From: Rhizobium etli 8C-3
GTDB taxonomy: Bacteria > Pseudomonadota > Alphaproteobacteria > Rhizobiales > Rhizobiaceae
Assembly: GCF_001908375.1 (NCBI RefSeq)
Contig: NZ_CP017241.1
Span: 2,545,001-2,609,000 of the forward strand
Length of the DNA: 64,000 nt
Direction: 5' to 3'
Position numbers and translations under genes: made by a program. The notes below the pieces were generated by a model that saw only the letters and a list, made by a program, of their open reading frames with translations, did no database searches and had not been told where the DNA came from. Positions 46,288-62,368 of the stretch are shown here, piece by piece. How positions within the stretch are numbered: position 1 is the stretch's first letter; each line of letters opens with the position of its first letter.

Positions 46288-46514
46288 GTTGAATCCTCGA
46301 AGGAAATGTCGCGAGCCGGATGTCGCTTTCTTGCGCACTTTCGGGTTCATCGTGCGTTAACGTATCCTTTCCGATGATGGTTAACAAAATCCAAACAATC
46401 GCGCCGAAATTGCAGCCTCAATCTTTCACATCCTAAGAAATCGGGATGCCGAAAACGAGAAAGGCCCGGAAAGCTCGGGCTTTCCAGGCCAGTCTTGACG
46501 GTCCGCCTGTGTGA

Positions 46515-47669
46515 TCAGAAGCAGTCCTTGAACAGCGTCCTGGTATTTTCGAGCGTCATTTCGACGGGATTGCCGCCCGCGCTCGGATCTTCGATTGCCA
46601 TCGCAGAGAGCTCGTCGATCCGGTCCGGTGCGATCCCCATGGCCGAAAGGCTTCCCGGAACCCCGAGTTCTGCGCGAAGCTTCAGCACGTATTCATAAAA
46701 ACCGTCGAAGCCGCCGGAAATGCCGAGATAGGCGGCAGCACGTGCGATCTTTTCTTCGATGGCGGCGCGGTTGAAACGCAGCACCGCCGGCATCACGACG
46801 GCATTGGTCATGCCGTGATGGGTGTTGTAGACGGCGCCGATCGGATGCGACAGCGCATGGATGGCGCCAAGGCCCTTCTGGAAGGCGACGGCGCCCATGG
46901 CGGCGGCGGCCATCATGTTGGCGCGGGCTTCGAGGTCGGTTCCTTCCTTATAGGCACGCGGCAGGAATTCCTTGACAAGGCGCATGCCTTCCAGCGCGAT
47001 ACCGGCAGACATCGGATGATAAAATGGCGAGCAATAGGCTTCCAGGCAATGCGCAAATGCATCCATCCCGGTCCCGGCGGTGATGATCTTCGGCATGCCG
47101 ACCGTCAGCTCCGGATCGGCGATGACGACGCCCGGCAGAAATTTCGGATGGAAAATGATCTTCTTCACATGTGTTGTGGAATTGGTGATGACGCTGGCGC
47201 GGCCGACCTCCGAGCCAGTGCCGGCCGTCGTCGGCACCGCAACGATCGGCGCAATGCCCTCGATGCTCGCACGCGTCCACCAGTCCCCAATATCCTCGAA
47301 ATCCCAGACTGGACGCGTCTGGCCGGCCATGAAGGCGACGCACTTGCCGAGATCGAGGCCCGAACCGCCGCCGAAAGCGACGACGCCGTCATGGCCGCCG
47401 TCCTTGAAAGCCCTGACGCCTGCCTCGAGGTTCTTCTCGTTCGGGTTCGGATCGACGTCTGCGAAGATCGCGCGGCCGAGACCTGAATCTTCCAGGATGT
47501 CGAGCGCGTTCTTGGTAATCGCCATCGGGGCCAGGCCGCGATCGGTAATCAGCAGCGGCTTCTTCATGCCGAGGCTCTTGCAGGCGTCGGCCAGCTCCTT
47601 GATGCGGCCGCGGCCGAGCTTGACTGATGTCGGATAGCTCCAGTTGGCGGTAATATTGCTGCTGCTCAT
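46515..47669 (-). CDS. Iron-containing alcohol dehydrogenase
   Basis: A 384-residue group III alcohol dehydrogenase. FGGGSGLDLGKCVA is the NAD-binding motif; AGTGSEVG, GTGMDAFAHCLEAY and GAIHALSHPIGAVYNTHHGMTNAVVMP contain the metal ligands (Asp and three His). The protein is the last gene of a five-gene minus-strand set and overlaps the aldehyde dehydrogenase by ATGA. The context suggests that it oxidises a gamma-glutamylated amino alcohol, but other alcohols are possible. Confidence 0.88.
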   Translation of the reverse strand: MSSSNITANWSYPTSVKLGRGRIKELADACKSLGMKKPLLITDRGLAPMAITKNALDILEDSGLGRAIFADVDPNPNEKNLEAGVRAFKDGGHDGVVAFGGGSGLDLGKCVAFMAGQTRPVWDFEDIGDWWTRASIEGIAPIVAVPTTAGTGSEVGRASVITNSTTHVKKIIFHPKFLPGVVIADPELTVGMPKIITAGTGMDAFAHCLEAYCSPFYHPMSAGIALEGMRLVKEFLPRAYKEGTDLEARANMMAAAAMGAVAFQKGLGAIHALSHPIGAVYNTHHGMTNAVVMPAVLRFNRAAIEEKIARAAAYLGISGGFDGFYEYVLKLRAELGVPGSLSAMGIAPDRIDELSAMAIEDPSAGGNPVEMTLENTRTLFKDCF

Positions 47670-49051
47670 GCTGTGACTTTCTTGAGGTGGAAGGATTTCG
47701 GGCGCGTCAGATTGTAAAAGCCGATGATCGACAGCGAGCCGCCGCGGCCCGTCTCCTTGACGCCGGTCCAGCAGAGCGCCGGGTCGAGATAGTCTGCGCG
47801 GTTCATGAAAACGGTGCCGGTTTCGATCTCGCGGCCGAGCCGCGCTGCCCGCTCGGCATCCTTCGTCCAGAGCGATGCGGTAAGGCCGTACTGGCTGTCG
47901 TTCATCAAAGCCAGTGCTTCCTCGTCGCTCTTTACCTTCATGATGCCGACCGCCGGGCCGAAAGTCTCTTCGCGCATGAACGCCATGGAATGGTCGACGT
48001 CGACGAGGATCTGCGGTGCGAGATAGGCGCCGCCGTCATCGGCCGGGAAGAGCTTCGGATCGACGAGTGCCTTGGCGCCCTTGGAAACCGCGTCGGCGAT
48101 CTGCTCGCGCACCACTTTGGCGAAACGCTTGTTCGCCATTGGACCGAGCGAAGTTTCCGCATCGAGCGGATTGCCGAGCTTGTAATTGGAAACCCATGCG
48201 ACCGACTTTTCGACAAAGCTGCCATAAAGCGATTCATGCACGTAGATGCGCTCGATGCCGCAGCAGCATTGGCCGGAATTGTAGGTCGCGCCATCCATCA
48301 GCGTATCGACGGCCGCATCGAGATCGGCATCTTCCATGACGTAGCCCGGATCCTTGCCGCCGAGTTCGAGCCCGAGGCCCGTAAAGGTCCCGGCTGCGGC
48401 CCGCTCCATGGAACGACCACCCTCGACGGATCCGGTGAAATTGACGAAATTGAAGCTGCCGGCGGCGATCAGCGCCGACGTCGTTTCATGGTCGAGAAAG
48501 ACGTTCTGGAAGACGTCTTCCGGAACACCTGCCTCGACAAAGGCCTGAACCAGCCGCTCGCCGACGAGCAGCGTCTGCGAGGCGTGTTTCAAGATGACGG
48601 TATTGCCCGCCATCAGCGCCGGTGCGATCGTGTTGATCGCCGTCATATAAGGATAGTTCCACGGGGCGATCACGAACACGACGCCATGGGCTTCACGCTC
48701 GATACGGCGCTCGAACTTGTCACTTTGTTCGACAACAAGCGGCGCCAGCGCGTCGGCAGCGATAGAGGCGACATAGTTGGAGCGCTCGTTGAAGCCTCTG
48801 TATTCGCCGCCATACTTGACCGGCCGACCCATCTGCCAGGCGAGTTCCGGCACGACGCGATCGGACATCTCGTTGAGACGCGCAGCACCCTTCAGCACAA
48901 GCTGTACGCGCTCTTCCAGCGGCCGCTTCGCCCAAGCCCTCTGCGCCTTGCGGGCGCGGGCAACAACATCCCTCGCCGCCTCCAGCGAGAGCGCCGGACG
49001 CTCCGCGTATACCGATCCGTCGACCGGCGAAATGCATTGGATCATGGTCAT
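47666..49051 (-). CDS. NAD(P)-dependent aldehyde dehydrogenase
   Basis: A 461-residue aldehyde dehydrogenase. VVFVIAPWNYPYMTAINTIAPALMAGNTVILKHASQT is the cofactor site, LELGGKDPGYVMEDADLD contains the general-base Glu, and YNSGQCCCGIERIYVHE has the nucleophilic Cys in an unusual triple-Cys run. REETFGPAVGIMKV closes the family. It would oxidise the aldehyde produced by the coupled alcohol dehydrogenase. A degenerate repeat separates it from the glutamine-synthetase-like gene upstream. Confidence 0.9.
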   Translation of the reverse strand: MTMIQCISPVDGSVYAERPALSLEAARDVVARARKAQRAWAKRPLEERVQLVLKGAARLNEMSDRVVPELAWQMGRPVKYGGEYRGFNERSNYVASIAADALAPLVVEQSDKFERRIEREAHGVVFVIAPWNYPYMTAINTIAPALMAGNTVILKHASQTLLVGERLVQAFVEAGVPEDVFQNVFLDHETTSALIAAGSFNFVNFTGSVEGGRSMERAAAGTFTGLGLELGGKDPGYVMEDADLDAAVDTLMDGATYNSGQCCCGIERIYVHESLYGSFVEKSVAWVSNYKLGNPLDAETSLGPMANKRFAKVVREQIADAVSKGAKALVDPKLFPADDGGAYLAPQILVDVDHSMAFMREETFGPAVGIMKVKSDEEALALMNDSQYGLTASLWTKDAERAARLGREIETGTVFMNRADYLDPALCWTGVKETGRGGSLSIIGFYNLTRPKSFHLKKVTA

Positions 49052-49096
49052 GGTCTCGTCCTGCCTTTGTATTCTTCAAATCTCTTCGGGCACCAG

Positions 49097-49216
49097 CCCC
49101 TCATCCACCTGCCGACCTTCTTGCGAAAATCGCGGCGAAGAAAGGGATGCCGCACCCCGTCAATCGCAACGCCTGTGGGACAGTCACCTCGCCCCATCAA
49201 GGGTTAGGGTGAGGAC
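49097..49216. repeat. Degenerate rhizobial intergenic palindrome
   Basis: CCCCTCATCC, a CTGCCGACCTTCTTGCG stretch, GCCGCACCCC and finally CGCCCCATCAAGGG with TAGGGTGAGG follow the order of the well-known dispersed rhizobial intergenic element. Central parts have decayed. It lies between the ALDH and ligase genes. Confidence 0.6.
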
Positions 49217-49242
49217 ACAGCAACGACACGCTGCAAAATGCC

Positions 49243-50616
49243 TTACGCCCTTTCAAAGCCTCTCGCCACTTCCCAATCCGTCACGCGGCGGTCGTATTCC
49301 TCCTGCTCCCATTCGGCAGCGCGCGTGTAGTGGTCGATGACGTCATCACCGAAAGCCGTCCGCAGCATCTTTGATTGCGTCATGGCGACCGTCGCGGCAC
49401 GAAGCGTGTGCGGGATCTCGCGGATATCTCGCGCGCCATAGGCATCGCCGACGAATGGCGATTCGAGTTCGAGCCCGTTCTCAATGCCGTCGATGCCAGC
49501 CGCCAGCAGTGCTGCAAAGGCGAGATACGGATTGAGGTCCGAACCACCGACGCGGCATTCGATGCGGATCGCCTTGGTGTCGTCGCCGCAGAGGCGGTAG
49601 CCGGCGGTGCGGTTGTCCTTGCTCCAGATCGCCTTCGTCGGTGCGAAGGTGCCGGCCATGAAGCGCTTGTAGGAATTGATATAAGGTGCCAGGAAATAGG
49701 TGATCTCGCTTGCGTGGGCGAGAAGGCCGGCCACGTAGTTCCGCATCAAAGGCGACATGCCGTATGTACCCTTCTCGTCGAAGAACAGCGGCGTCTTTGC
49801 GTCGGCGCTCCAGAGCGACTGATGGATATGAGAGGAGCTGCCGGCCGACATGTAGCTCCATTTGGCGAGGAAGGTGATTGCCTTGCCCTTCGACCAGGCG
49901 ATTTCCTTGCAGCCGTTCTTGATGATGGCGTGCCGGTCAGCCATCGTCAGCGCGTCGGCGTAGCGCACGTTGATTTCCTCCTGCCCTGCCGAAGCCTCAC
50001 CCTTGGAATTCTCGACCGGAATGCCCGCACCCTGCAAGCCGGTACGGATCGCCCGCATCACATCCTCTTCCTTGGTCGTCTGGAAGATGTGGTAGTCCTC
50101 GTTGTAGGCGCTGGCGAGCTTGAGATTGCGGTAGCCGGCGGCATGCGCAGCCTCATACGTCTGGTCGAAGAGGAAGAATTCGAGCTCGGATGCCATGAAG
50201 GCCTTCATGCCCATGTCTTCCAGGCGCTTGACCTGCTTCTTCAGGATGGCGCGCGGCGAATGCGGCACCTCTTCGTGCGTGTGATGGTCGAGCAGATCGC
50301 AAAGAACCAGCGCCGTTCCCTCGAGCCAGGGAATGCGGCGCAGCGTCGAAAGGTCCGGTTTCATCGTGTAGTCGCCGTAACCCTTCTCCCAGCTCGTCGC
50401 CTTGTAGCCGGAAACGGTTTCCATCTCCATGTCGGTCGCGACCAGATAGTTGCAGCTATGCGTTTCCTTCCAGGCGCTTTCGAGGAAATATTCCGCCTGG
50501 AAGCGCTTGCCCATCAAGCGGCCCTGCATGTCCACCTGGCATGCGAGAATAGTATCGATGCGCCCTTCGGCCACGTCCTTCTTGAGATCATCGAAAGTAT
50601 AGCTGTTGCTCATCAT
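49243..50616 (-). CDS. Glutamine-synthetase-like gamma-glutamyl amine ligase
   Basis: A 457-residue member of the GlnA superfamily in the branch of GlnT/PuuA-like ligases that join glutamate to an amine with ATP. ASELEFFLFDQTYEAA and SAGQEEINVRYADALTMADRHAIIKNGCKEIAW hold the metal-binding Glu and substrate region; KWSYMSAGSSSHIHQSLWS, INSYKRFMAGTFAPTKAIWSKDNRTAGYR and RIECRVGGSDLNPYLAFAALLAAG are diagnostic. The Tyr of the adenylylation loop is not evident. The neighbours (permease, dehydrogenases, amidohydrolase) support amine catabolism rather than ammonia assimilation. Confidence 0.88.
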   Translation of the reverse strand: MMSNSYTFDDLKKDVAEGRIDTILACQVDMQGRLMGKRFQAEYFLESAWKETHSCNYLVATDMEMETVSGYKATSWEKGYGDYTMKPDLSTLRRIPWLEGTALVLCDLLDHHTHEEVPHSPRAILKKQVKRLEDMGMKAFMASELEFFLFDQTYEAAHAAGYRNLKLASAYNEDYHIFQTTKEEDVMRAIRTGLQGAGIPVENSKGEASAGQEEINVRYADALTMADRHAIIKNGCKEIAWSKGKAITFLAKWSYMSAGSSSHIHQSLWSADAKTPLFFDEKGTYGMSPLMRNYVAGLLAHASEITYFLAPYINSYKRFMAGTFAPTKAIWSKDNRTAGYRLCGDDTKAIRIECRVGGSDLNPYLAFAALLAAGIDGIENGLELESPFVGDAYGARDIREIPHTLRAATVAMTQSKMLRTAFGDDVIDHYTRAAEWEQEEYDRRVTDWEVARGFERA

Positions 50617-50712
50617 TTATCCGCCTGAAATCTGGATTGGAAACTCGGGGCAACGAAACAGCATGCAGCGGTCGCCATGACCGGCTAGATGCCTCTTCGC
50701 TGGACCGGTGAT

Positions 50713-50735
50713 GGGGCCGCGTGAATGGCGGCCCC
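50713..50735 (-). other. Intercistronic hairpin between permease and ligase genes
   Basis: GGGGCCGC (50713-50720) pairs with GCGGCCCC (50728-50735) around a seven-base loop. There is no T tract, so it looks more like an RNA-stabilising or processing stem than a terminator, which would uncouple levels of permease and ligase. Confidence 0.5.
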
Positions 50736-50762
50736 GCCATTTGAGAGGGAAGCTCGGTTTTC

Positions 50763-52310
50763 TTACGCTTCGCCGACGGCCTTTTCGGCAGCCGCGATCT
50801 CAGCCTGGCGCTTGGCGACTTCCTCGCCGATCGGCGGGCCCTTGAAGCGGCGCTTTTCGAAGCCGTACCAGACAACGCCGGTTACAATAAGGAAGCCGAC
50901 GGTGATGTAGAGCGCCCAGTCATTCGGCGGCTGGATGCCGAGCACGAAAATAAGCACCATTGCAATGATCGAGAGCACGGCAAAGAGCTTGAACATTGCC
51001 TCGCCAAGATTCCACGGCCCCATCTTGTCCCACTTCGACGTACCCCAGGCGAAGAGGCCGAGCGTGATCGGAATCGCGAAGGAGAAAAAGAGGAAGATGA
51101 CGGTGCACGAAACGACGATGGTATAGACCGGCGTTTCGCCGATCGAAACGAGCGACGAACCCCAGACGAAGAGGACGGCGAGGATAGAACCGGTCCAGAT
51201 TGCAGCAACCGGCGTGCGGTGTTTCGGACTGACCTTCGACAATGCCTTGGATGCCGGCAGACCGCCGTCACGCGAGAAGGCGAAGATCATGCGGGAAACC
51301 GAAGTGACGGTTGCAAGGCCGCACAGCCACTGGCTGACCAGAATGGCAAGATACAGGATATCCTTGACGATCGGATTGACCTGGCTGTCCATCGCCCAGA
51401 AGAACACGTTCCAGCCCTGCTTGGCAGCTTCGTCCATGCTGGGCAGCATCAGCACGAATGCGCAAAGCATGATGTAGCCGAAGAGCGCCGACCAGAGCAC
51501 GGAGGAAATCATGCCGCGCGGCACGGAATGCGCAGCCTTTACGGTCTCTTCCGACGTATGGGCCGACGCGTCATAGCCGGTGATCGTGTAGATCGGCAGC
51601 AGGAGGCCGAGCAGGAACACCCAGGTCGCGGACGTGGCAGGCCAGACATTGCCGCCAGCTTCGCCCGAATAGTTGGCGAAGGTGAAGAGACGGCCGAACT
51701 CGTAGGATGGTGCGGCGATCAGGCAAACTGCGGCGAGCGCGATTGCCGTTGCAAAGATCAGGTAGCCAGAAAAGTCCGTGAGCTTGGCGGTCAGGCCGAT
51801 GCCCATATGGTTCACAAGCGCCTGCGCACCGGTGATGATGACCAGGAAGGCGATGCGAACGAATGTCGTGTCCGCCAGCCCGAGATAGCTCGTGCCGAAG
51901 GAGCCCATGAAGAAGTAGTAGGTACCGACGTTGATGGCACCGAGCACCGTCACGAGACCGAGCAGGTTGAACCAGGCGGTCAGCCAGCCGGTGAAGCGGT
52001 TGCCGAGGATGGAACCCCAGTGGTAGAGACCGCCTGCGGTCGGATAGGCAGAGCTGATCTGCGCCATGGCAACGGCGAAGACGAGCGAAATGAAGCAGCC
52101 GAGTGGCCAACCGATGCCGATCGCAGCACCACCAGCGCCGGCAGTCGCCTGCGCCAGCGAATTGATGCCGCCGGAAAGGATGCAGATGATCGAGAAGGAG
52201 ACGGCAAAGTTCGAGAACGAACTCATTCGCCTTTCCAGTTCCTGGGCATAGCCCATCGAATGCAGGATGCTCATATCCTGCTTCTTATCAAGTTCGGTAT
52301 AGTCCGACAT
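50763..52310 (-). CDS. APC-superfamily amino-acid/amine permease
   Basis: A 515-residue inner-membrane transporter with about twelve helices. ELERRMSSFSNFAVSFSIICILSGGINSLAQ and GGAAIGIGWPLGCFISLVFAVAMAQISSAYPTAGGLYHWGSILG are typical of the ACT branch (amino acid/choline, GABA permeases). GYDASAHTSEETVKAAHSVPRGM is the conserved loop after the sixth helix, and SRDGGLPASKALSKVSPKHRTPVAA the one near the eighth. The ATG at 52310 follows GGGGGAAG. Substrate is probably an amine or amino acid feeding the ligase downstream. Confidence 0.87.
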   Translation of the reverse strand: MSDYTELDKKQDMSILHSMGYAQELERRMSSFSNFAVSFSIICILSGGINSLAQATAGAGGAAIGIGWPLGCFISLVFAVAMAQISSAYPTAGGLYHWGSILGNRFTGWLTAWFNLLGLVTVLGAINVGTYYFFMGSFGTSYLGLADTTFVRIAFLVIITGAQALVNHMGIGLTAKLTDFSGYLIFATAIALAAVCLIAAPSYEFGRLFTFANYSGEAGGNVWPATSATWVFLLGLLLPIYTITGYDASAHTSEETVKAAHSVPRGMISSVLWSALFGYIMLCAFVLMLPSMDEAAKQGWNVFFWAMDSQVNPIVKDILYLAILVSQWLCGLATVTSVSRMIFAFSRDGGLPASKALSKVSPKHRTPVAAIWTGSILAVLFVWGSSLVSIGETPVYTIVVSCTVIFLFFSFAIPITLGLFAWGTSKWDKMGPWNLGEAMFKLFAVLSIIAMVLIFVLGIQPPNDWALYITVGFLIVTGVVWYGFEKRRFKGPPIGEEVAKRQAEIAAAEKAVGEA

Positions 52311-52427
52311 GACTTCCCCCTGTTTGACGATCAGCAGCGGAATTGCCGCAGATCCAGTGCCAAAGTTGCCCGCCGCTTTCGCCATACGGACAGATCGCAG
52401 TTAGACTGCTCCCTGGGGTCTATTGTT

Positions 52428-53201
52428 TTATGGTCGGGCTTCCAGGCTTTGCTGGAGGAGCCCTGTCAGATAGTCGGCCATGACCCCTTGGCCGACATCC
52501 TCGCTGATGAGGTCGTTGCGGACCTCGATCATTACATTGCGGAGCCCGTTCGAGAGGCCGTGCAGGATCAGCGTGTGCGTGACGCCATCCTCAGGGCCAT
52601 AGGGCTCGTTTCGTTCGGTTTTGTAGAGCGGGGCGTCAGCCGCCGCTGCCAGCATTCTGTCTGCCAGGCGGCTGTCGGCATCGTGCAGGATGCCGAGCTC
52701 GACGGCACGCTCCTTGCCATTATAGACCGGCGTGAAACTGTGAACAGTGACGATCACCGCCTCCTGCCCCCGCGCCTGACGGTCCTTTATGAGATCTCTA
52801 ACCGCATCGTGGAAAGGTCGATACAGCGCTTCGGTACGGGCCTGCCGTTCCTTTGCGCTCAGATTCCGATTGCCGGGAATGGCATAGATCTCGCTCGTCT
52901 CGGGCATTGCGCCTGGCGATTCGGGCGGGCGATTGCAGTCGTAGATCAGGCGAGAGAAGCGCTGAAAGACAAGTGTTGCGTCAAGCGCCGTCGAGATGGC
53001 GCGCGCAACTGCCAAAGCGCCCGGATCCCAGGCGATGTGGCTATTGAGCGCTTCCTCGGAAAGACCGAGATCGCCGAGCTGCTCGGGCAGCGCTCGCGAA
53101 GCGTGCTCGCAGATGACCAGCAATGGGCTCTTGCCGCGCGGCCGCTCTATTCCGACGCAGTTTCCATCCGCTTCGCTTAGAATCTTGAACTGAGTGAGCA
53201 C
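52428..53201 (-). CDS. N-formylglutamate amidohydrolase family protein
   Basis: A 257-residue zinc hydrolase of the FGase (HutG-like) family. LLVICEHASRALPEQLGDLGLSEEALNSHIAWDPGALAVARAIS, RLIYDCNRPPESPGAMPE, VIVTVHSFTPVYNGKERAVELGIL and NVMIEVRNDLIS match the four conserved blocks with metal-binding His, Asp and Glu. No other histidine-degradation gene is nearby. In this set it might hydrolyse the gamma-glutamyl or acyl amide formed by the pathway. It reads away from the RpiR gene. Confidence 0.82.
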   Translation of the reverse strand: MLTQFKILSEADGNCVGIERPRGKSPLLVICEHASRALPEQLGDLGLSEEALNSHIAWDPGALAVARAISTALDATLVFQRFSRLIYDCNRPPESPGAMPETSEIYAIPGNRNLSAKERQARTEALYRPFHDAVRDLIKDRQARGQEAVIVTVHSFTPVYNGKERAVELGILHDADSRLADRMLAAAADAPLYKTERNEPYGPEDGVTHTLILHGLSNGLRNVMIEVRNDLISEDVGQGVMADYLTGLLQQSLEARP

Positions 53202-53243
53202 CTAGCCGCGCCTGCCGTTGCCTTAATAATTTCCTTACAAGAA

Positions 53244-53253
53244 AAGAATTCTT
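53244..53253. promoter_or_regulatory. AAGAATTCTT palindrome in the divergent promoter region
   Basis: A perfect ten-base palindrome lying 43 bases upstream of the amidohydrolase start and about 30 bases from a second inverted repeat. It may be an operator for the minus-strand catabolic genes; short enough to be chance. Confidence 0.3.
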
Positions 53254-53281
53254 CAGTCTTCGGGCGGTGTCAAGCGCGATC

Positions 53282-53297
53282 TGAAAATTTCTTTTCA
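53282..53297. promoter_or_regulatory. Inverted repeat TGAAAA-N4-TTTTCA, candidate RpiR operator
   Basis: A perfect six-base inverted repeat with TTTC between the arms, lying between the divergent amidohydrolase and RpiR genes. RpiR-family repressors bind short AT-rich inverted repeats with GAAA/TTTC arms. Just downstream TTGACA at 53307 could be the -35 element of the regulator promoter, so binding would be autoregulatory. Confidence 0.5.
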
Positions 53298-53382
53298 TGA
53301 CAGTGGTTGACATGGATTGTGACAGCGTTGTTAACTTTGAGAGGGAAAGTGGCACAAGACCAATCCCGGGGAGCAAGATCGC

Positions 53383-54255
53383 GTGAGCGCTGCGTCGAAG
53401 ACGGTTTCGGACGTCATCCATTCGCATTTCGAAGCGCTGACGCGCGCCGAGAAGCAATTGGCCGAGAGTCTGCTGGATAATTATCCTGTTTCGGGGCTGG
53501 GCAGCATCACCACGATCGCCGAAAACGCCGGCGTCTCGACGCCCACCGTCGTCCGCATGGTCCAGAAGCTCGGCTTCAAGGGTTATCCGGATTTCCAGGC
53601 GCATCTGCATCAGGAGGTCGAAGCGACGATCTCCAACCCGATCGCCAAACACGATCGTTGGGCTTCCAATGCGCCGGGCACGCATATCCTCAACCGTTTC
53701 GCCGATGCCATCATCGGCAATCTGCGCCAGACGCTGAGCGATCTCGACACCGCGACTTTCAACAGCGCCGCTGCCCTGCTTTCGGATCGCAAGCGCGGCC
53801 TTTATTTCGTCGGCGGTCGCATCACGGGCGCGCTTGCCGAATACTTCTTCACCCACATGCAGGTCATCCGGCCGAATACCGCACTCTTGTCGTCCAATTC
53901 CTCCAGCTGGCCGCAGTATGTTCTCAACATGAATGCCGGCGATTTGCTGATCATCTTCGACATCCGCCGCTATGAGCAGGAGATGGTGAGCCTTGCCCAG
54001 GCCGCCCGTACGCGCGGCGCCGAAATCATCGTCTTCACGGACCAATGGGGATCGCCGGCGGCAAAGCTCGCGAAACACGTCTTTCGCGTCCAGATCGAGG
54101 CGCCGTCGGCTTGGGATTCTTCGGTCGTCACCCTCTTTATCGTCGAAGCGCTCATCGAAGCGGTCCAGAATTCTACCTGGGACGAGACGAAGGAGCGTAT
54201 GAAAACACTGGAGGGCCTGTTCGAACAGACCAGGCTGTTCCGAAAACCCGGCTAG
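53383..54255 (+). CDS. MurR/RpiR-family transcriptional regulator
   Basis: A 290-residue repressor/activator. Residues 1-80 are an RpiR helix-turn-helix domain (ITTIAENAGVSTPTVVRMVQKLGFKGYPDFQAHL); residues 125-265 are a SIS sugar/phosphosugar-binding domain starting at GLYFVGGRITGALAEYFFTHM. The start is GTG at 53383 with GGGGAG upstream. It is divergent from the amine-catabolic genes and followed 188 bases later by an ABC importer, so it may control one or both. The ligand is unknown. Confidence 0.88.
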   Translation: MSAASKTVSDVIHSHFEALTRAEKQLAESLLDNYPVSGLGSITTIAENAGVSTPTVVRMVQKLGFKGYPDFQAHLHQEVEATISNPIAKHDRWASNAPGTHILNRFADAIIGNLRQTLSDLDTATFNSAAALLSDRKRGLYFVGGRITGALAEYFFTHMQVIRPNTALLSSNSSSWPQYVLNMNAGDLLIIFDIRRYEQEMVSLAQAARTRGAEIIVFTDQWGSPAAKLAKHVFRVQIEAPSAWDSSVVTLFIVEALIEAVQNSTWDETKERMKTLEGLFEQTRLFRKPG

Positions 54256-54443: not shown

Positions 54444-55547
54444 GTGATCTCTAACATTTCTCGACTGCTCTCGCTTTCTACTGCGATCGTCGTAGCTTCG
54501 ACTGCGATTGCCGCAGCAGAACCGAGCGCCGAACTCGTCGCCGCCGCCAAGAAGGAAGGCACGCTCACCACCATCGCTCTCCCGCACAACTGGTGCGGTT
54601 ATGGCGACGTCATTGCCGGCTTCAAGGCCAAGTATGGCATCGAAGTCAACGAACTGAACCCGGACGCAGGTTCGGGCGACGAAATCGAAGCAATCAAGGC
54701 CAACAAGGGCAATACCGGCCCGCAGGCGCCCGACGTCATCGACGTCGGCCTCTCCTTCGGCCCGTCGGCCAAGGCCGAAGGCCTCATCCAGCCCTACAAG
54801 GTCTCCACCTGGGATTCCATTCCGGACTCAGCCAAAGACGCCGACGGCTTCTGGTACGGCGACTACTACGGCGTTCTTTCGTTCGTGGTGAACACCGACA
54901 TCGTCAAGAACGTCCCGAAGGATTGGGCCGACCTGAAGAAGTCCGAATATGCCAACTCCGTTTCGCTCGCTGGCGATCCGCGCGCTTCCAACCAGGCTGT
55001 TCAAGCCGTCTACGCCGCTGGCCTCGCTGCCGGTGAAAAGGATGCCACGAAGGCTGGCGAAGCAGGTCTTGCTTACTTCGCAGAGCTCAACAAGGCCGGC
55101 AACCTCGTTCCGGTCATCGGCAAGTCCGCTTCGCTCGCTCAGGGTTCCACCCCGATCGTCGTCGCCTGGGACTATAACGGCCTCTCCTGGCGTGACAGCC
55201 TCAACGGCAACCCGCCGGTTGAGGTCGTCGTTCCAGCATCGGGCGTCGTTGCCGGTGTCTACGTTCAGGCGATCTCCGCCTTTGCTCCGCATCCGAATGC
55301 TGCCAAGCTCTGGATGGAATACCTCTATTCAGACGAAGGCCAGCTCGGCTGGCTGAAAGGCTATTGCCACCCGATCCGCTTCAACGACCTTGCCGAAAAG
55401 GGCCTGATTCCGAAGGAACTGCTCGACAAGCTGCCGCCGGCTGAAGGCTATGCCAAGGCTGTCTTCCCGACACTCGACGAGCAGGCCGCAGGCAAGACCG
55501 CCATCACCACCAAGTGGGACAGCGTCGTCGGTGCCAACGTTCAGTAA
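54444..55547 (+). CDS. ABC-importer periplasmic substrate-binding protein
   Basis: A 367-residue exported protein with a signal peptide (LLSLSTAIVVASTAIAAA). It has the two-lobed fold of the Fe(III)/polyamine binding-protein group: GTLTTIALPHNWCGYGDVIAGFKAKYGIEVN and DADGFWYGDYYGVLSFVVNTDIVKNVPKDWADL. The C-terminal AISAFAPHPNAAKLWMEYLYSDEGQ is typical. The start is GTG at 54444 behind AAGGAG. The ligand is not identifiable. A strong stem-loop right after the gene should keep its mRNA level above that of the membrane parts. Confidence 0.85.
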   Translation: MISNISRLLSLSTAIVVASTAIAAAEPSAELVAAAKKEGTLTTIALPHNWCGYGDVIAGFKAKYGIEVNELNPDAGSGDEIEAIKANKGNTGPQAPDVIDVGLSFGPSAKAEGLIQPYKVSTWDSIPDSAKDADGFWYGDYYGVLSFVVNTDIVKNVPKDWADLKKSEYANSVSLAGDPRASNQAVQAVYAAGLAAGEKDATKAGEAGLAYFAELNKAGNLVPVIGKSASLAQGSTPIVVAWDYNGLSWRDSLNGNPPVEVVVPASGVVAGVYVQAISAFAPHPNAAKLWMEYLYSDEGQLGWLKGYCHPIRFNDLAEKGLIPKELLDKLPPAEGYAKAVFPTLDEQAAGKTAITTKWDSVVGANVQ

Positions 55548-55558
55548 GGCATGACATC

Positions 55559-55595
55559 ATGCCTCCCCGCCCTGATAGCGGGGAGGCATTTTCTT
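55559..55595 (+). terminator. Intra-operon terminator/stabiliser after the binding-protein gene
   Basis: A 12-base stem, ATGCCTCCCCGC (55559-55570) with GCGGGGAGGCAT (55578-55589), followed by TTTCTTT. It ends 36 bases before the first permease ATG. Partial read-through here is a common way to make excess binding protein. Confidence 0.85.
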
Positions 55596-55624
55596 TCACT
55601 CCGAGGCCCCCGGATGAGCTTTGC

Positions 55625-56518
55625 ATGAGCACCGTTTCAACTCCTTTGGCGAGCACCGCCCCCCTGATCAACAAGGATCGCGTAATCGACTGGCTGGGCA
55701 TCTTGCCCTTCGTCATCTTCGCTCTGCTGTTTCTGATCATCCCCACGCTTTATCTTGTCGTCGGCGCCTTCCTCACGCCCGAAGGCGAATTCACGTTCAA
55801 GAACATCGGCGATCTCTTCACCCCGTCGATCATGAGCGCCTATTGGATCAGCATCCGCGTGTCCGTGGCTTCCGCTCTCGGGGGTGCGCTGATCGGCTTC
55901 TTTCTCGCATGGGCAGTCGTCCTGGGGGGACTGCCCTCCTCTGTCCGCTCGACACTTTTGACTTTCTCCGGCGTCGCATCGAACTTTGCCGGCGTGCCGC
56001 TTGCCTTCTCGTTCCTGGCAACGCTCGGCCGCACCGGCCTCGTCACCATCTTCCTGCGCGACTGGTTCGGCTTCAACCTCTACGGCACCGGCTTCAACCT
56101 GCTGTCCTTCTTCGGCCTCACCATCACCTACATGTATTTCCAGATCCCGCTGATGGTGCTGATCCTAACGCCGGCGCTTGACGGCATGAAGAAGGAATGG
56201 CGCGAGGCCGCTGAAATTCTTGGCGCCACGAACCGCCAGTACTGGACGATGGTGGCCCTGCCGATCCTCTGGCCGAGCCTGCTCGGCACGACGCTGCTGC
56301 TCTTTGCAAACGCCTTCGGCGCCATCGCGACAGCCTATGCACTGACAGGAAGCTCACTGAACATCGTTCCGATCCTGCTTTACGCGCAGATCCGCGGCGA
56401 TGTCCTTCACAACCCGAACCTCGGCTACGCGATCGCGCTCGGCATGATCGTCATCACCGGCGTCTCCAACGTCCTTTACCTGATGCTGCGCATGCGCGCC
56501 GAACGGTGGCAGAAATGA
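55625..56518 (+). CDS. ABC-importer permease subunit 1
   Basis: A 297-residue inner-membrane protein with six helices of the PotB/FbpB type. The cytoplasmic EAA loop is KKEWREAAEILGATNRQYWTMVALPILWPSL, which contacts the ATPase. It starts MSTVSTPLASTAPL; the open frame extends upstream through the hairpin but has no signal. It overlaps the second permease by ATGA. Confidence 0.88.
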   Translation: MSTVSTPLASTAPLINKDRVIDWLGILPFVIFALLFLIIPTLYLVVGAFLTPEGEFTFKNIGDLFTPSIMSAYWISIRVSVASALGGALIGFFLAWAVVLGGLPSSVRSTLLTFSGVASNFAGVPLAFSFLATLGRTGLVTIFLRDWFGFNLYGTGFNLLSFFGLTITYMYFQIPLMVLILTPALDGMKKEWREAAEILGATNRQYWTMVALPILWPSLLGTTLLLFANAFGAIATAYALTGSSLNIVPILLYAQIRGDVLHNPNLGYAIALGMIVITGVSNVLYLMLRMRAERWQK

Positions 56519-57300
56519 AAGCTCAACGTCTCGGCGCCTGGATCGCCATTTTTCTGGGTGCGTCCTATTTCATCATTCCGCTGATCGGCACCATCGAGTT
56601 TTCGCTGCGAATGCGCCGCGGCGTATACAGCTTCGATGCCTATCAGTCGGTCTTTTCGGACATCCAGTTCCGCGAGACCTTCGGCTATTCCATGCTGATG
56701 GCCCTTTTGACCATCGTCTTCGGCATGCTGCTCGTCGTGCCGACGGCTTATTGGGTTCGCCTGCGCCTGCCGCAGATGCGCCCGATCGTGGAATTCGTGA
56801 CGCTGCTGCCGCTGGTCATCCCGGCGATCGTCATCGTCTTCGGCTATCTGCGCATGTATAATTCGTCGTCGGTCCTGCCCCTGACGGGTTACACGACCGG
56901 CACGAACATCCTGCTCGTCTGCTCCTACATCACGCTTTCGCTGCCCTACATGTATCGAGCGGTCGATACGGCCATGCGCGCCATCGACGTGCGCACGCTG
57001 ACAGAGGCGGCCGAAAGCCTCGGCGCCAGCTGGCCGACCATCATGTTCCGCTGCATCTTCCCGAACGTCATGAGCGGCGTGCTGTCGGGCGCCTTCATCA
57101 CGCTTGCGATCGTCATGGGCGAATTCACGATGGCTGCCCTCCTCAACCGGCCGGCCTTCGGGCCTTATCTGCAGCTCGTCGGTGCCAACAAGGCTTACGA
57201 GCCTTCGGCGCTTGCCGTCATTGCCTTCTCGATCACATGGCTCTGCATGGGTCTGCTCAACCTCATCTCCCGTTTCCAAAAATCCGCCCCCGCAAGGTAA
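56515..57300 (+). CDS. ABC-importer permease subunit 2
   Basis: A 261-residue six-helix protein of the PotC/FbpB type. The EAA loop reads RTLTEAAESLGASWPTIMFRCIFPNVMSGVLSG. The ATG at 56515 overlaps the previous stop as ATGA; a GTG three codons earlier is the alternative. It is followed six bases later by the ATPase gene. Confidence 0.88.
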   Translation: MKAQRLGAWIAIFLGASYFIIPLIGTIEFSLRMRRGVYSFDAYQSVFSDIQFRETFGYSMLMALLTIVFGMLLVVPTAYWVRLRLPQMRPIVEFVTLLPLVIPAIVIVFGYLRMYNSSSVLPLTGYTTGTNILLVCSYITLSLPYMYRAVDTAMRAIDVRTLTEAAESLGASWPTIMFRCIFPNVMSGVLSGAFITLAIVMGEFTMAALLNRPAFGPYLQLVGANKAYEPSALAVIAFSITWLCMGLLNLISRFQKSAPAR

Positions 57301-57306
57301 CTGGCC

Positions 57307-58368
57307 ATGTCATTCCTCACGCTGACCAATCTTCAGAAATCCTTCGGCCAGGTTCAGGTCGTCCATAATTTCAACATGAGCATCGAGAAGGGGGAATTCG
57401 TCTCTTTCCTTGGGCCGTCCGGCTGCGGCAAGACTACGGTGCTGCGCATGATCGCCGGCTTCGAAACGCCGACCGGCGGCAGCCTCTTCATCAACGGCAA
57501 GGATCAGCGCCCGCTGAAACCGAACCAGCGCAACATCGGCATGGTCTTCCAGGCTTACGCACTGTTCCCGAACATGAACGTGCACGACAACGTCGCCTTC
57601 GGTCTCAAGGTTGCGGGCATGTCGAAGGCCGACATCGATGCGCGCGTGAAGGAAATGCTGGGCCTCATCCGCCTCGACCATCTCGCTGATCGCTTTCCCT
57701 ACCAGATGTCGGGCGGCCAGCAGCAGCGCGTGGCGCTTGCCCGCGCGCTTGCCGTCAAGCCGCAGGTCCTGCTGCTCGACGAGCCACTCTCCGCGCTTGA
57801 TGCGAAGATCCGCGTGTCGCTTCGCGAAGAGATCCGCCTCATTCAGCAGAAGCTCGGCATCACCACCATCTTCGTGACGCACGACCAGGAAGAGGCGCTC
57901 TCGATTTCCGACCGAATTGTCGTTATGAATGCCGGCAAGGCGGACCAGATCGGTACACCCTTCGAGGTCTACAATACGCCCGCAACCCGCTTCGTCGCGT
58001 CCTTCGTCGGGACGCTGAACATGATCGAGGCGAAGGTCGTCGATCCGGCGGCAAACCGCATCCAGATCGGCGACCAGGCCGTGACGCTCAAGCAGTCGCT
58101 CGCAGCCTACAAGGCAGGCGAGACCGTTTCGCTGGCGCTTCGTCCGGAAGCAGGCTCGCTTTCCGACAGCGTCAGGAGCGATACGGCGCTGACCGGCCAG
58201 GTCATCTCCGCCCACTTCCTGGGCTCCGTCATCCGCACCCGCATGAATGTCGGCGGCAACGTCATTTCCTTCGACATGTTCAACAGCCCGGGCATCACCC
58301 CGCCACAGGCAGGCGAAACCGTCACGCTCCGCTTCATGGCCGCCGACCTGCTCGTCGTGCGCGATTGA
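57307..58368 (+). CDS. ABC-importer ATPase, PotA/FbpC type
   Basis: A 353-residue ATPase. Walker A is GPSGCGKTT at 36-44, the signature MSGGQQQRVALARAL, Walker B LLLDEPLSALD and the switch THDQEEALSISDRI. Residues from about 240 form a TOBE-type regulatory domain (VSLALRPEAGSL). It completes a binding protein-permease-permease-ATPase operon for a polyamine-, iron- or phosphonate-type ligand. Confidence 0.9.
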   Translation: MSFLTLTNLQKSFGQVQVVHNFNMSIEKGEFVSFLGPSGCGKTTVLRMIAGFETPTGGSLFINGKDQRPLKPNQRNIGMVFQAYALFPNMNVHDNVAFGLKVAGMSKADIDARVKEMLGLIRLDHLADRFPYQMSGGQQQRVALARALAVKPQVLLLDEPLSALDAKIRVSLREEIRLIQQKLGITTIFVTHDQEEALSISDRIVVMNAGKADQIGTPFEVYNTPATRFVASFVGTLNMIEAKVVDPAANRIQIGDQAVTLKQSLAAYKAGETVSLALRPEAGSLSDSVRSDTALTGQVISAHFLGSVIRTRMNVGGNVISFDMFNSPGITPPQAGETVTLRFMAADLLVVRD

Positions 58369-60290: not shown

Positions 60291-61292
60291 CTAACGGATC
60301 GCTTGGTCCTTGGCATCGAAGCGATGCATATGTGCCTTGTCCGGCGTCGCATAAACAATCTCGTCCGGCTCGTACTTGTGTTCGCCAAACAGGCGCGCCG
60401 TCAGCAGGCCACATTGATCCGACTCCAGATAGACGATCGTATCGGCGCCGAGATGCTCGACATGCACGATTTTGGCCTTCCAGGTCCCCTGCTCGCGTGA
60501 AAGCGTCAGATGCTCGGGACGAACGCCGATCGTCCTTGCCTCCTTGTCGCCGAGCTTCTCTGCCGGGATCAAGTTCATCATCGGCGAGCCGATAAAGCCA
60601 GCGACGAAGACGTTTGCCGGACGATTGTAGAGTTCCATCGGCGAACCGACCTGCTCGATTGCACCGGCGTTCAGCACGACGATCTTGTCGGCCAGCGTCA
60701 TCGCCTCGACCTGGTCGTGGGTGACGTAGATCATCGTCGCCTTCAGGCTGCGATGCAGGCGGGCGATCTCCAGGCGCGTCTGGACGCGCAGTGCCGCATC
60801 GAGGTTGGAAAGCGGCTCGTCGAAGAGGAAAAGTTCCGGTTCGCGCACGATGGCGCGGCCAATCGCGACGCGCTGACGCTGGCCGCCGGAGAGCTCGGCG
60901 GGCCGGCGCGCGAGATAGGGCTCAAGCGACAGCATCGACGATGCCTTGCCGACGCGCGTGTCGATCTCGTCCTTCGGCATTCCGGCCTGCTTCAGGCCGA
61001 GCCCCATGTTGTCCTTCACCGTCAAGTGGGGATAAAGCGCGTAGGATTGGAAGACCATGGCGATACCGCGCTTGGCGGGCGGCTTCAGCGTCTCGTCCTT
61101 TCCGTTGATGAGGACGGCGCCGGACGTCACGTCTTCGAGGCCGGCGATGCTGCGCAGCAGCGTCGATTTTCCGCAACCGGACGGTCCGACGAAAATAACG
61201 AATTCGCCGTCCCTGACCTCAAGGTCGATGCCCTTCAGCACCTCATGCGTGCCATAGGTCTTGCGTATGGATTTGAGTTGAAGCGATCCCAC
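60291..61292 (-). CDS. Sugar ABC-importer ATPase (CUT1, UgpC/MalK-like)
   Basis: A 333-residue ATPase. Walker A is GPSGCGKST at 36-44, the signature [15 protein letters not shown], Walker [19 protein letters not shown], and the switch [18 protein letters not shown]-terminal OB-fold regulatory region starts near LIPAEKLGD. It is the last gene of a minus-strand unit with two permeases and a dehydrogenase, and overlaps the latter's stop by one base. Confidence 0.92.
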
Positions 61293-62368
61293 TAGTCGTT
61301 CCCTTGCAGTTTGACCGGTTTGCCAGTGCGCACGCTCTCATCGGCGGCGAGGCAGATTCGTAGCGATGCAACGGCATCGGCCATGTGGCGATTGAGGTCG
61401 AGATCCTCGCGAATGGCCTTGAGCATGAAGGACTGCTCGCGCTCGCAGAGCTCCTGATGGCCGGGTTCTCCCGCCATCGTCATGTCCTGATCCGGCCTGA
61501 CGAACTTGCCCTCCGGCCCCGTCTCGGCACTGTGCAGCCGGATGACGGAGGTTTTGGTGTGCGTGTCGATGTCGTCGGATTTCGCGTTCGGGTCCATGAC
61601 GATCGAGACCGCCCCGTTCGGCGACATGACATCTTTCACGAAGAAGGCCGTCTCCGAGATCATCGGCCCCCAGCCGGCCTCGTACCATCCAACGGAACCG
61701 TCCTCGAAGATCACCTGCAGGTGGCCGTAATTGTACATGTCCGGCGCGATCTCGCCGGAAAGTCGCAGCCCCATGCCGCGCACCTCGACGGGCTTGGCAT
61801 CGGTGATCTGGCACATGACGTCGACGTAATGCACGCCGCAATCCACGATCGGCGATGTCGTCTGCATCAGTGACTTGTGCGTCTGCCAGGTCGGGCCACT
61901 GGATTGCTGATTGAGGTTCATGCGAAACACATAAGGCGGCCCAAGTTTCCGCGCTTCCTCTATCAGCTTCATCCAGGACGGATGATGGCGAAGGATGTAG
62001 CCGATCACCAGTTTCCGCCCGGCCTTCTTCGCAGCCGCCACGACGCGCTCGGCGTCGGCAACGGTCGTTGCAAGCGGCTTTTCCACGAAGACATCACAAC
62101 CGGCCTCGAATGCGGCGACCGCATAATCGGCATGGCTGTCGGAATAGGTGCAGATGGAGCAGAGATCGGGCTTCAGTTCGGTCAGCGCCGTCTCGAAGTC
62201 GGGATAGATCCTGTAGCCCAGCAGCTCCGGCGCAAGCTCCGGCTTCGAGCGGTTGACGAGACCGACGATCTCGAAGTCCGGGTTGTTGTGATAGGCGAGC
62301 GCATGGCTGCGGCCCATATTGCCGAGCCCCGCGACGAGAACACGGACCGGCTTCTGCGAAATGGTCAT
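61292..62368 (-). CDS. Gfo/Idh/MocA-family sugar oxidoreductase
   Basis: A 358-residue NAD(P)-dependent dehydrogenase. The N-terminal Rossmann motif is [20 protein letters not shown]; the catalytic Lys lies in [21 protein letters not shown], and the His-containing [17 protein letters not shown] follows. It probably oxidises the sugar or inositol-like compound brought in by the linked importer. Overlaps the neighbouring permease by ATGA. Confidence 0.88.

Follow-up and report, generated by a model that had tools for sequence, protein, structure and literature searches.

A probable gamma-glutamyl ethanolamine utilisation operon with an APC-family permease in Rhizobium etli 8C-3

Gene organization of the locus

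Five minus-strand genes of Rhizobium etli 8C-3, transcribed from position 53201 to 46515 of a 64,000-nucleotide stretch of contig NZ_CP017241.1 (positions 2,545,001 to 2,609,000; this whole stretch is called the window), encode a hydrolase, a permease, a GlnA-like ligase and two dehydrogenases that very probably serve the utilisation of ethanolamine via gamma-glutamylated intermediates. The genome comprises 7.3 Mb, and its nearest relatives, judged by the ligase gene, are Rhizobium by name. In the order of transcription, the genes are:

52428..53201, minus strand: FGase-family hydrolase (Pfam FGase, 163.1 bits); proposed gamma-glutamylglycine amidohydrolase (GGAH)
50763..52385, minus strand: APC-family permease (AA_permease_2, 167.6 bits); proposed ethanolamine uptake
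49243..50616, minus strand: GlnA-like ligase; proposed ethanolamine gamma-glutamylase (gamma-glutamylethanolamide synthetase)
47666..49051, minus strand: aldehyde dehydrogenase (Aldedh, 397.7 bits); proposed gamma-glutamyl-aminoacetaldehyde dehydrogenase
46515..47669, minus strand: iron-containing alcohol dehydrogenase (Fe-ADH, 157.7 bits; ADH_Fe_C, 141.7 bits); proposed gamma-glutamylethanolamide dehydrogenase

An earlier note, made from the sequence alone, had placed five genes of these types on one strand, which the open reading frames and Pfam matches bear out; the order that it gave (permease, ligase, alcohol dehydrogenase, aldehyde dehydrogenase, hydrolase) was wrong. The hydrolase and permease genes are separated by 42 bp, the permease and ligase genes by 146 bp, and the ligase and aldehyde dehydrogenase genes by 191 bp, while the start of the alcohol dehydrogenase gene overlaps the aldehyde dehydrogenase gene by 4 bp.

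The gene set recurs in other genomes, where the earlier note had proposed to look for it. Two sets of homologous loci were compared: 80 close loci, which are the best 80 of at least 592 and are all titled Rhizobiaceae or 'Rhizobiales', and 40 wider loci, drawn from the 43 matches that a phylum-wide search gave in other genomes. Both dehydrogenase genes lie downstream of the ligase gene in all 80 close loci. The hydrolase gene, the gene for a divergent RpiR-family regulator and the gene for a solute-binding protein of an ATP-binding cassette (ABC) transporter are each present in 78 of them, contig ends cutting off the other two. Among the wider loci, the alcohol dehydrogenase is found in 38, the aldehyde dehydrogenase in 34, the hydrolase in 27 and the RpiR regulator in 26. 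The grouping is thus not due to chance, as it is conserved across 80 homologous loci.

Assignment to the gamma-glutamyl ethanolamine pathway

Ethanolamine, a constituent of cell membranes, would enter the cell via the APC permease and be joined to glutamate by the GlnA-like ligase at the expense of ATP. The iron alcohol dehydrogenase is predicted to convert gamma-glutamylethanolamide to the aldehyde and the aldehyde dehydrogenase to convert the latter to gamma-glutamylglycine, from which the FGase-type hydrolase may release glycine and glutamate for recycling. We assign a probability of about 0.92 to the reading that the five genes form a Rhizobium operon for the use of ethanolamine via the gamma-glutamyl route. 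The earlier note had already sketched amino-alcohol uptake, glutamylation, two oxidations and hydrolysis. This scheme coincides with a published pathway in the kinds and order of its genes and in the closeness of the ligase to Csal_0679, and the substrate can now be narrowed from an amino alcohol to, most likely, ethanolamine. The pathway itself is not new, and since the route is known in other bacteria, the find is mostly ordinary.

In the Puu pathway, which proceeds via gamma-glutamylputrescine, glutamylation likewise comes first, followed by oxidation and then hydrolysis. The window differs from it in the substrate, in the alcohol dehydrogenase that takes the place of the amine oxidase and in the FGase-type hydrolase that replaces the PuuD-type enzyme. 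Both replacements had been pointed out in the earlier note and hold; what had been taken as unusual is, however, the standard build of a known pathway.

The gamma-glutamyl ethanolamine route has been described in Chromohalobacter, Agrobacterium C58 and Phaeobacter, and a counterpart is known from Streptomyces. The pathway in Chromohalobacter salexigens and Agrobacterium tumefaciens C58 is credited to Vetting et al. (reference 32 of PMC10132767). Phaeobacter sp. MED193 carries the operon RpiR-GGAH-EtoVWX-ETAGA-GAADDH-GETADH; in cells grown on phosphorylethanolamine, EtoX, the hydrolase and the remaining three enzymes of this operon are reported as increased (PMC10132767). By gene kinds, the window matches this arrangement, with RpiR at the hydrolase end and the order hydrolase, transporter, ligase, aldehyde dehydrogenase, alcohol dehydrogenase. 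In contrast to Phaeobacter, it has an APC permease in place of the tripartite ATP-independent periplasmic (TRAP) transporter EtoVWX, and an ABC operon adjoins.

In Streptomyces coelicolor, GlnA4 is described as a gamma-glutamylethanolamide synthetase, with the same later steps predicted (PMC6529630); PMC9397018 reviews both GlnA4 and the pathway described above. The SCO1610-1615 cluster resembles the window in its glutamine synthetase-like ligase, where F takes the place of E327, and in the predicted dehydrogenases and hydrolase leading to glycine and glutamate (PMC6529630). It differs in its regulator and, according to a figure legend, in a short-chain dehydrogenase (orf2) and a glutamine amidotransferase (orf5); the discussion of the same paper, in contrast to the legend, treats SCO1615 as an FGase-family member and assigns the last step to a member of the formylglutamate amidohydrolase family (PMC6529630).

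The ligase and the other enzymes

The ligase shares 62% identity with Csal_0679 and belongs to the Csal_0679/ETAGA type. Its closest solved relatives are the Protein Data Bank (PDB) entries 5dm3, which is Csal_0679 by title, and 11zs. The locus number of Csal_0679 adjoins that of Csal_0678, which is reported as the EtoX homologue of C. salexigens (PMC10132767). Both PDB entries are titled glutamine synthetase, and 11zs shows F at the E327 place in the alignment; the function in the title of 5dm3 is probably wrong. Residue E327 of glutamine synthetase I (GSI) is absent from the ligase, F being found in 119 of 120 aligned sequences. The window ligase itself has F at this place and S at that of D50, the alignment of the D50 loop being uncertain. 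The ethanolamine ligase GlnA4 of S. coelicolor likewise lacks E327 (F331; PMC6529630).

Two other assignments were rejected. The ligase scores 257.1 against a cut-off of 429.15 for the GlnA glutamine synthetase (TIGR00653), whose D50 and E327 it does not show, and 199.9 against a cut-off of 650 for gamma-glutamylputrescine synthetase (NF045547). Five further loci of the genome match PF00120.

The hydrolase belongs to the FGase family (PF05013, 163.1 bits), and its activity as an amidohydrolase is predicted from this membership. Its closest solved chain is 2odf (325.5 bits), titled 'Hypothetical protein Atu2144', which is likely the C58 amidohydrolase and part of the C58 ethanolamine operon; the tag Atu2144 was not found in the literature searched for it. 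A role as HutG N-formylglutamate deformylase (TIGR02017) was rejected at 31.4 against a cut-off of 278.75. A role in histidine degradation was likewise rejected, as the hydrolase is far from HutG and the genome holds three further FGase matches. In the aldehyde dehydrogenase, C262, C263 and E228 are conserved in at least 97% of 116 aligned sequences and would, by family resemblance, be catalytic. The same degree of conservation is seen for D202, H206, H270 and H284 of the alcohol dehydrogenase (119 sequences), which by analogy with the family presumably bind the metal.

Exchange of transporters in one slot

EtoVWX is not found in the window, where the APC permease occupies the corresponding slot. 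In the 80 close loci, this slot holds a permease of the window type in 73 cases, EtoVWX in five (L059, L065, L072, L080 and L081) and an Eat-like protein in two. The latter, L078 (Agrobacterium sp.) and L082 (Neorhizobium), score 363.8 and 364.9 bits to the Eat ethanolamine permease model TIGR00908 (cut-off 381.75). EtoX of L065 matches chain 4uab with 540.3 bits, the next chain reaching 77; 4uab we take to be Csal_0678 with ethanolamine. A fold of an EtoX relative predicted without an alignment had a predicted local distance difference test (pLDDT) score of 36.7 and was not used. In the 40 wider loci, EtoX is present in 17, the window-type permease in nine, an Eat-like protein in three and none of the three in 11. 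The pathway is defined by its enzymes and not by its importer.

Largely mutual exclusion of the ligase and EutB

The EutBC ethanolamine ammonia-lyase route starts from the same compound by a different chemistry and is largely an alternative to the ligase in Rhizobiaceae. Among 151 genomes of this family, 110 have the ligase, 26 have EutB and six have both (Fisher p = 5.4e-9). Counted by genus (n = 109), the ligase is found in 79 and EutB in 23, with seven shared (Fisher p = 2.0e-6). The genome of the window has no PF06751 match and hence no EutB; among 14 control genomes, PF06751 matched in E. coli only. That one route stands in for the other suggests a common substrate, and the exclusion supports ethanolamine.

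The Eat-like protein of L078 has a counterpart of 89% identity beside EutB in L238, and proteins 66-68% identical to it lie near EutB in L239, L241 and L244. In total, an Eat-like gene is present in seven of 27 EutB neighbourhoods, in three of these at only 36-39% identity.

In L166, L180 and L181, the ABC genes are kept and the enzyme genes are mostly gone at the same place before a ParA-like gene. What is left there is Eat only in L166, permease and alcohol dehydrogenase in L180, and nothing in L181. The window-type permease and alcohol dehydrogenase of L180 stand beside the ABC genes in a stretch without matches to ligase, aldehyde dehydrogenase or hydrolase, and no ligase match reaches E <= 1e-120 in its genome. 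All three genomes carry EutB elsewhere, and the loci are apparently stages of enzyme-gene loss.

Weighing the assignment

Several observations weigh against the assignment to ethanolamine. In the wider loci, a hydrolase gene adjoins the ligase gene in only 27 of 40 and an aldehyde dehydrogenase is present in 34, while 11 have no known transporter. The window permease has no TIGR00908 match among its four matches at E <= 0.001, and the Eat-like proteins fall slightly below the curated cut-off of this model. E327 is also reported missing in the polyamine ligase PauA7, and its absence is therefore not specific to ethanolamine. Because the Rhizobiaceae genomes are related, the evidence is weaker than the Fisher values indicate; six of the 151 have both enzymes. 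In a class-wide sample of 337 genomes, the ligase is found in 38, EutB in 23 and both in one, which is too sparse and weak alone.

The same chemistry might act mainly on another amino alcohol (such as 2-amino-1-propanol, 3-amino-1-propanol or serinol) and yield another amino acid, which we consider improbable. As the permease is neither EtoX nor a match to the Eat model, the uptake specificity of the window operon is only predicted, and chain 4xf5, listed with a sequence identical to 4uab, presumably holds 2-amino-1-propanol. However, the enzymes stay similar while the slot holds either an EtoX relative or an Eat-like protein, and the ligase and ethanolamine ammonia-lyase mostly exclude each other. 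A role of the ligase as ordinary glutamine synthetase, or as polyamine glutamylase with the cluster as a Puu-type route, is highly improbable: although it has the glutamine synthetase fold, and its close relative 11zs is titled merely glutamine synthetase, it scores below both cut-offs, has E327 replaced and shares its genome with five other PF00120 loci, and no amine oxidase was found among ten scanned window proteins.

Proposed regulation

Upstream of the gamma-glutamyl ethanolamine operon and downstream of its last gene lie the following features:

53383..54255, plus strand: RpiR-family regulator, divergent from the enzyme operon (HTH_6, 60.6 bits; SIS, 87.3 bits)
53241..53254, plus strand: proposed RpiR operator box 1, GAAAAGAATTCTTC
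53283..53296, minus strand: proposed RpiR operator box 2, GAAAAGAAATTTTC, 42 bp from box 1
46463..46490, minus strand: terminator-like hairpin 3' of the alcohol dehydrogenase gene (12-pair stem with 8 G-C pairs, T-rich tail)

The RpiR gene begins 181 bp from the hydrolase gene on the opposite strand and is followed by a four-gene ABC transporter (54444-58368); both lie beyond the segment described in the earlier note. In Phaeobacter, an RpiR gene is also reported to adjoin the hydrolase gene (PMC10132767). The divergent intergenic region 53202-53382 contains two conserved 14-base boxes, GAAAAGAAWTYTTC, 42 bp apart, which are probably operators of RpiR; on this prediction, the regulator would control both the enzyme operon and the ABC operon. 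At least one box with up to two mismatches is present in 89 of 113 divergent regions, mostly from close relatives, and two boxes in 51; ten rounds of simple base shuffling gave 0 to 2 regions with a box. Eight of 19 listed regions have no box, all of them from the wider set (L119, L120, L122, L124, L127, L132, L139 and L147). The own genome contains three box sites in total, two of which lie in this intergenic region. Because the pattern was drawn from the two boxes of the window, only their conservation counts as independent evidence. Hairpins of the same kind were found at 8 sites against 6.5 in shuffles, so that the hairpin would be weak as sole evidence.

The linked ABC transporter

The divergent operon encodes four proteins:

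54444..55547, plus strand: ABC substrate-binding protein, linked to the operon (SBP_bac_6, 91.3 bits)
55514..56518, plus strand: ABC permease (BPD_transp_1, 27.5 bits, barely above the cut-off of 26.4)
56506..57300, plus strand: ABC permease (BPD_transp_1, 39.8 bits)
57307..58368, plus strand: ABC ATPase (ABC_tran, 129.7 bits; best NCBIfam model PhnT2, 417.9, below the cut-off of 457.7)

The solute-binding protein shows a remote similarity to 2-aminoethylphosphonate-binding proteins (69.3 bits, cut-off 310), and its nearest solved chain is 5t1p (211.1 bits). It is present in 85 of the 151 Rhizobiaceae genomes; 67 of these also have the ligase, and in 62 of the 67 the two genes are no more than 12 kb apart. 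The ABC genes are divergent as in the window in 78 of the 80 close and three of the 40 wider loci; in eight wider loci, they follow the alcohol dehydrogenase gene on the enzyme strand. Among the 41 Rhizobiaceae without the ligase, EutB is found in 16 of 18 genomes with the ABC protein versus four of 23 without it (p = 5.8e-6). The association gives p = 7.9e-4 in the 32 of these genomes of at least 3.3 Mb and 0.039 in the 18 of at least 4.0 Mb. A control gene (61292-62365) was not associated with EutB in the same sets (p = 0.13, 0.21 and 0.53).

Two results speak against an importer of ethanolamine: over all 151 genomes, the ABC protein is only weakly associated with the ligase (Fisher p = 0.068), and outside Rhizobiaceae, in the class sample, five of six genomes that encode the ABC protein lack both the ligase and EutB. 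Where the ABC genes lie away from the ligase, no common catabolic gene was seen among neighbours viewed by eye; recurrent neighbours there resemble, by eye and not by family models, an HlyD/MFS efflux pair and 6-phosphogluconate dehydrogenase. Among titles and beginnings of abstracts, nothing was found that deals with an ABC transporter for ethanolamine in rhizobia. We tentatively propose, as a possibility with the odds somewhat against it, that 54444-58368 encodes a new importer of ethanolamine or an ethanolamine-bearing compound, switched together with the enzyme operon by RpiR via the two boxes and serving either the gamma-glutamyl or the EutBC route.

Variant loci

Five loci (L143, L144, L148, L149 and L150) have ligase and alcohol dehydrogenase genes without an aldehyde dehydrogenase gene between them; a glyoxalase-family gene lies between the two in L149, and a flavin adenine dinucleotide (FAD) oxidoreductase of the DAO family follows them in L143. 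These variants perhaps act on another substrate. PIN-domain genes between ligase and aldehyde dehydrogenase occur in L014 (10837-11250), L075 (10918-11337) and L081 (4557-5394), in the last together with a helix-turn-helix gene.

Significance

The new findings are modest and comprise a member of the pathway from Rhizobium whose transporter slot is occupied by an APC permease, the exclusion between ligase and EutB among Rhizobiaceae, and the ABC transporter linked to the operon. The assignment extends an ethanolamine route that is already published to Rhizobium, in which the names of the protein families (glutamine synthetase, N-formylglutamate amidohydrolase, amino acid permease) would be misleading; generic names are likewise attached to the solved structures 5dm3, 11zs and 2odf. 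The exclusion between ligase and EutB and the three kinds of transporter swapping in one slot argue for the substrate on simple genomic grounds. As a candidate for another importer related to ethanolamine, the linked ABC transporter is open to testing.

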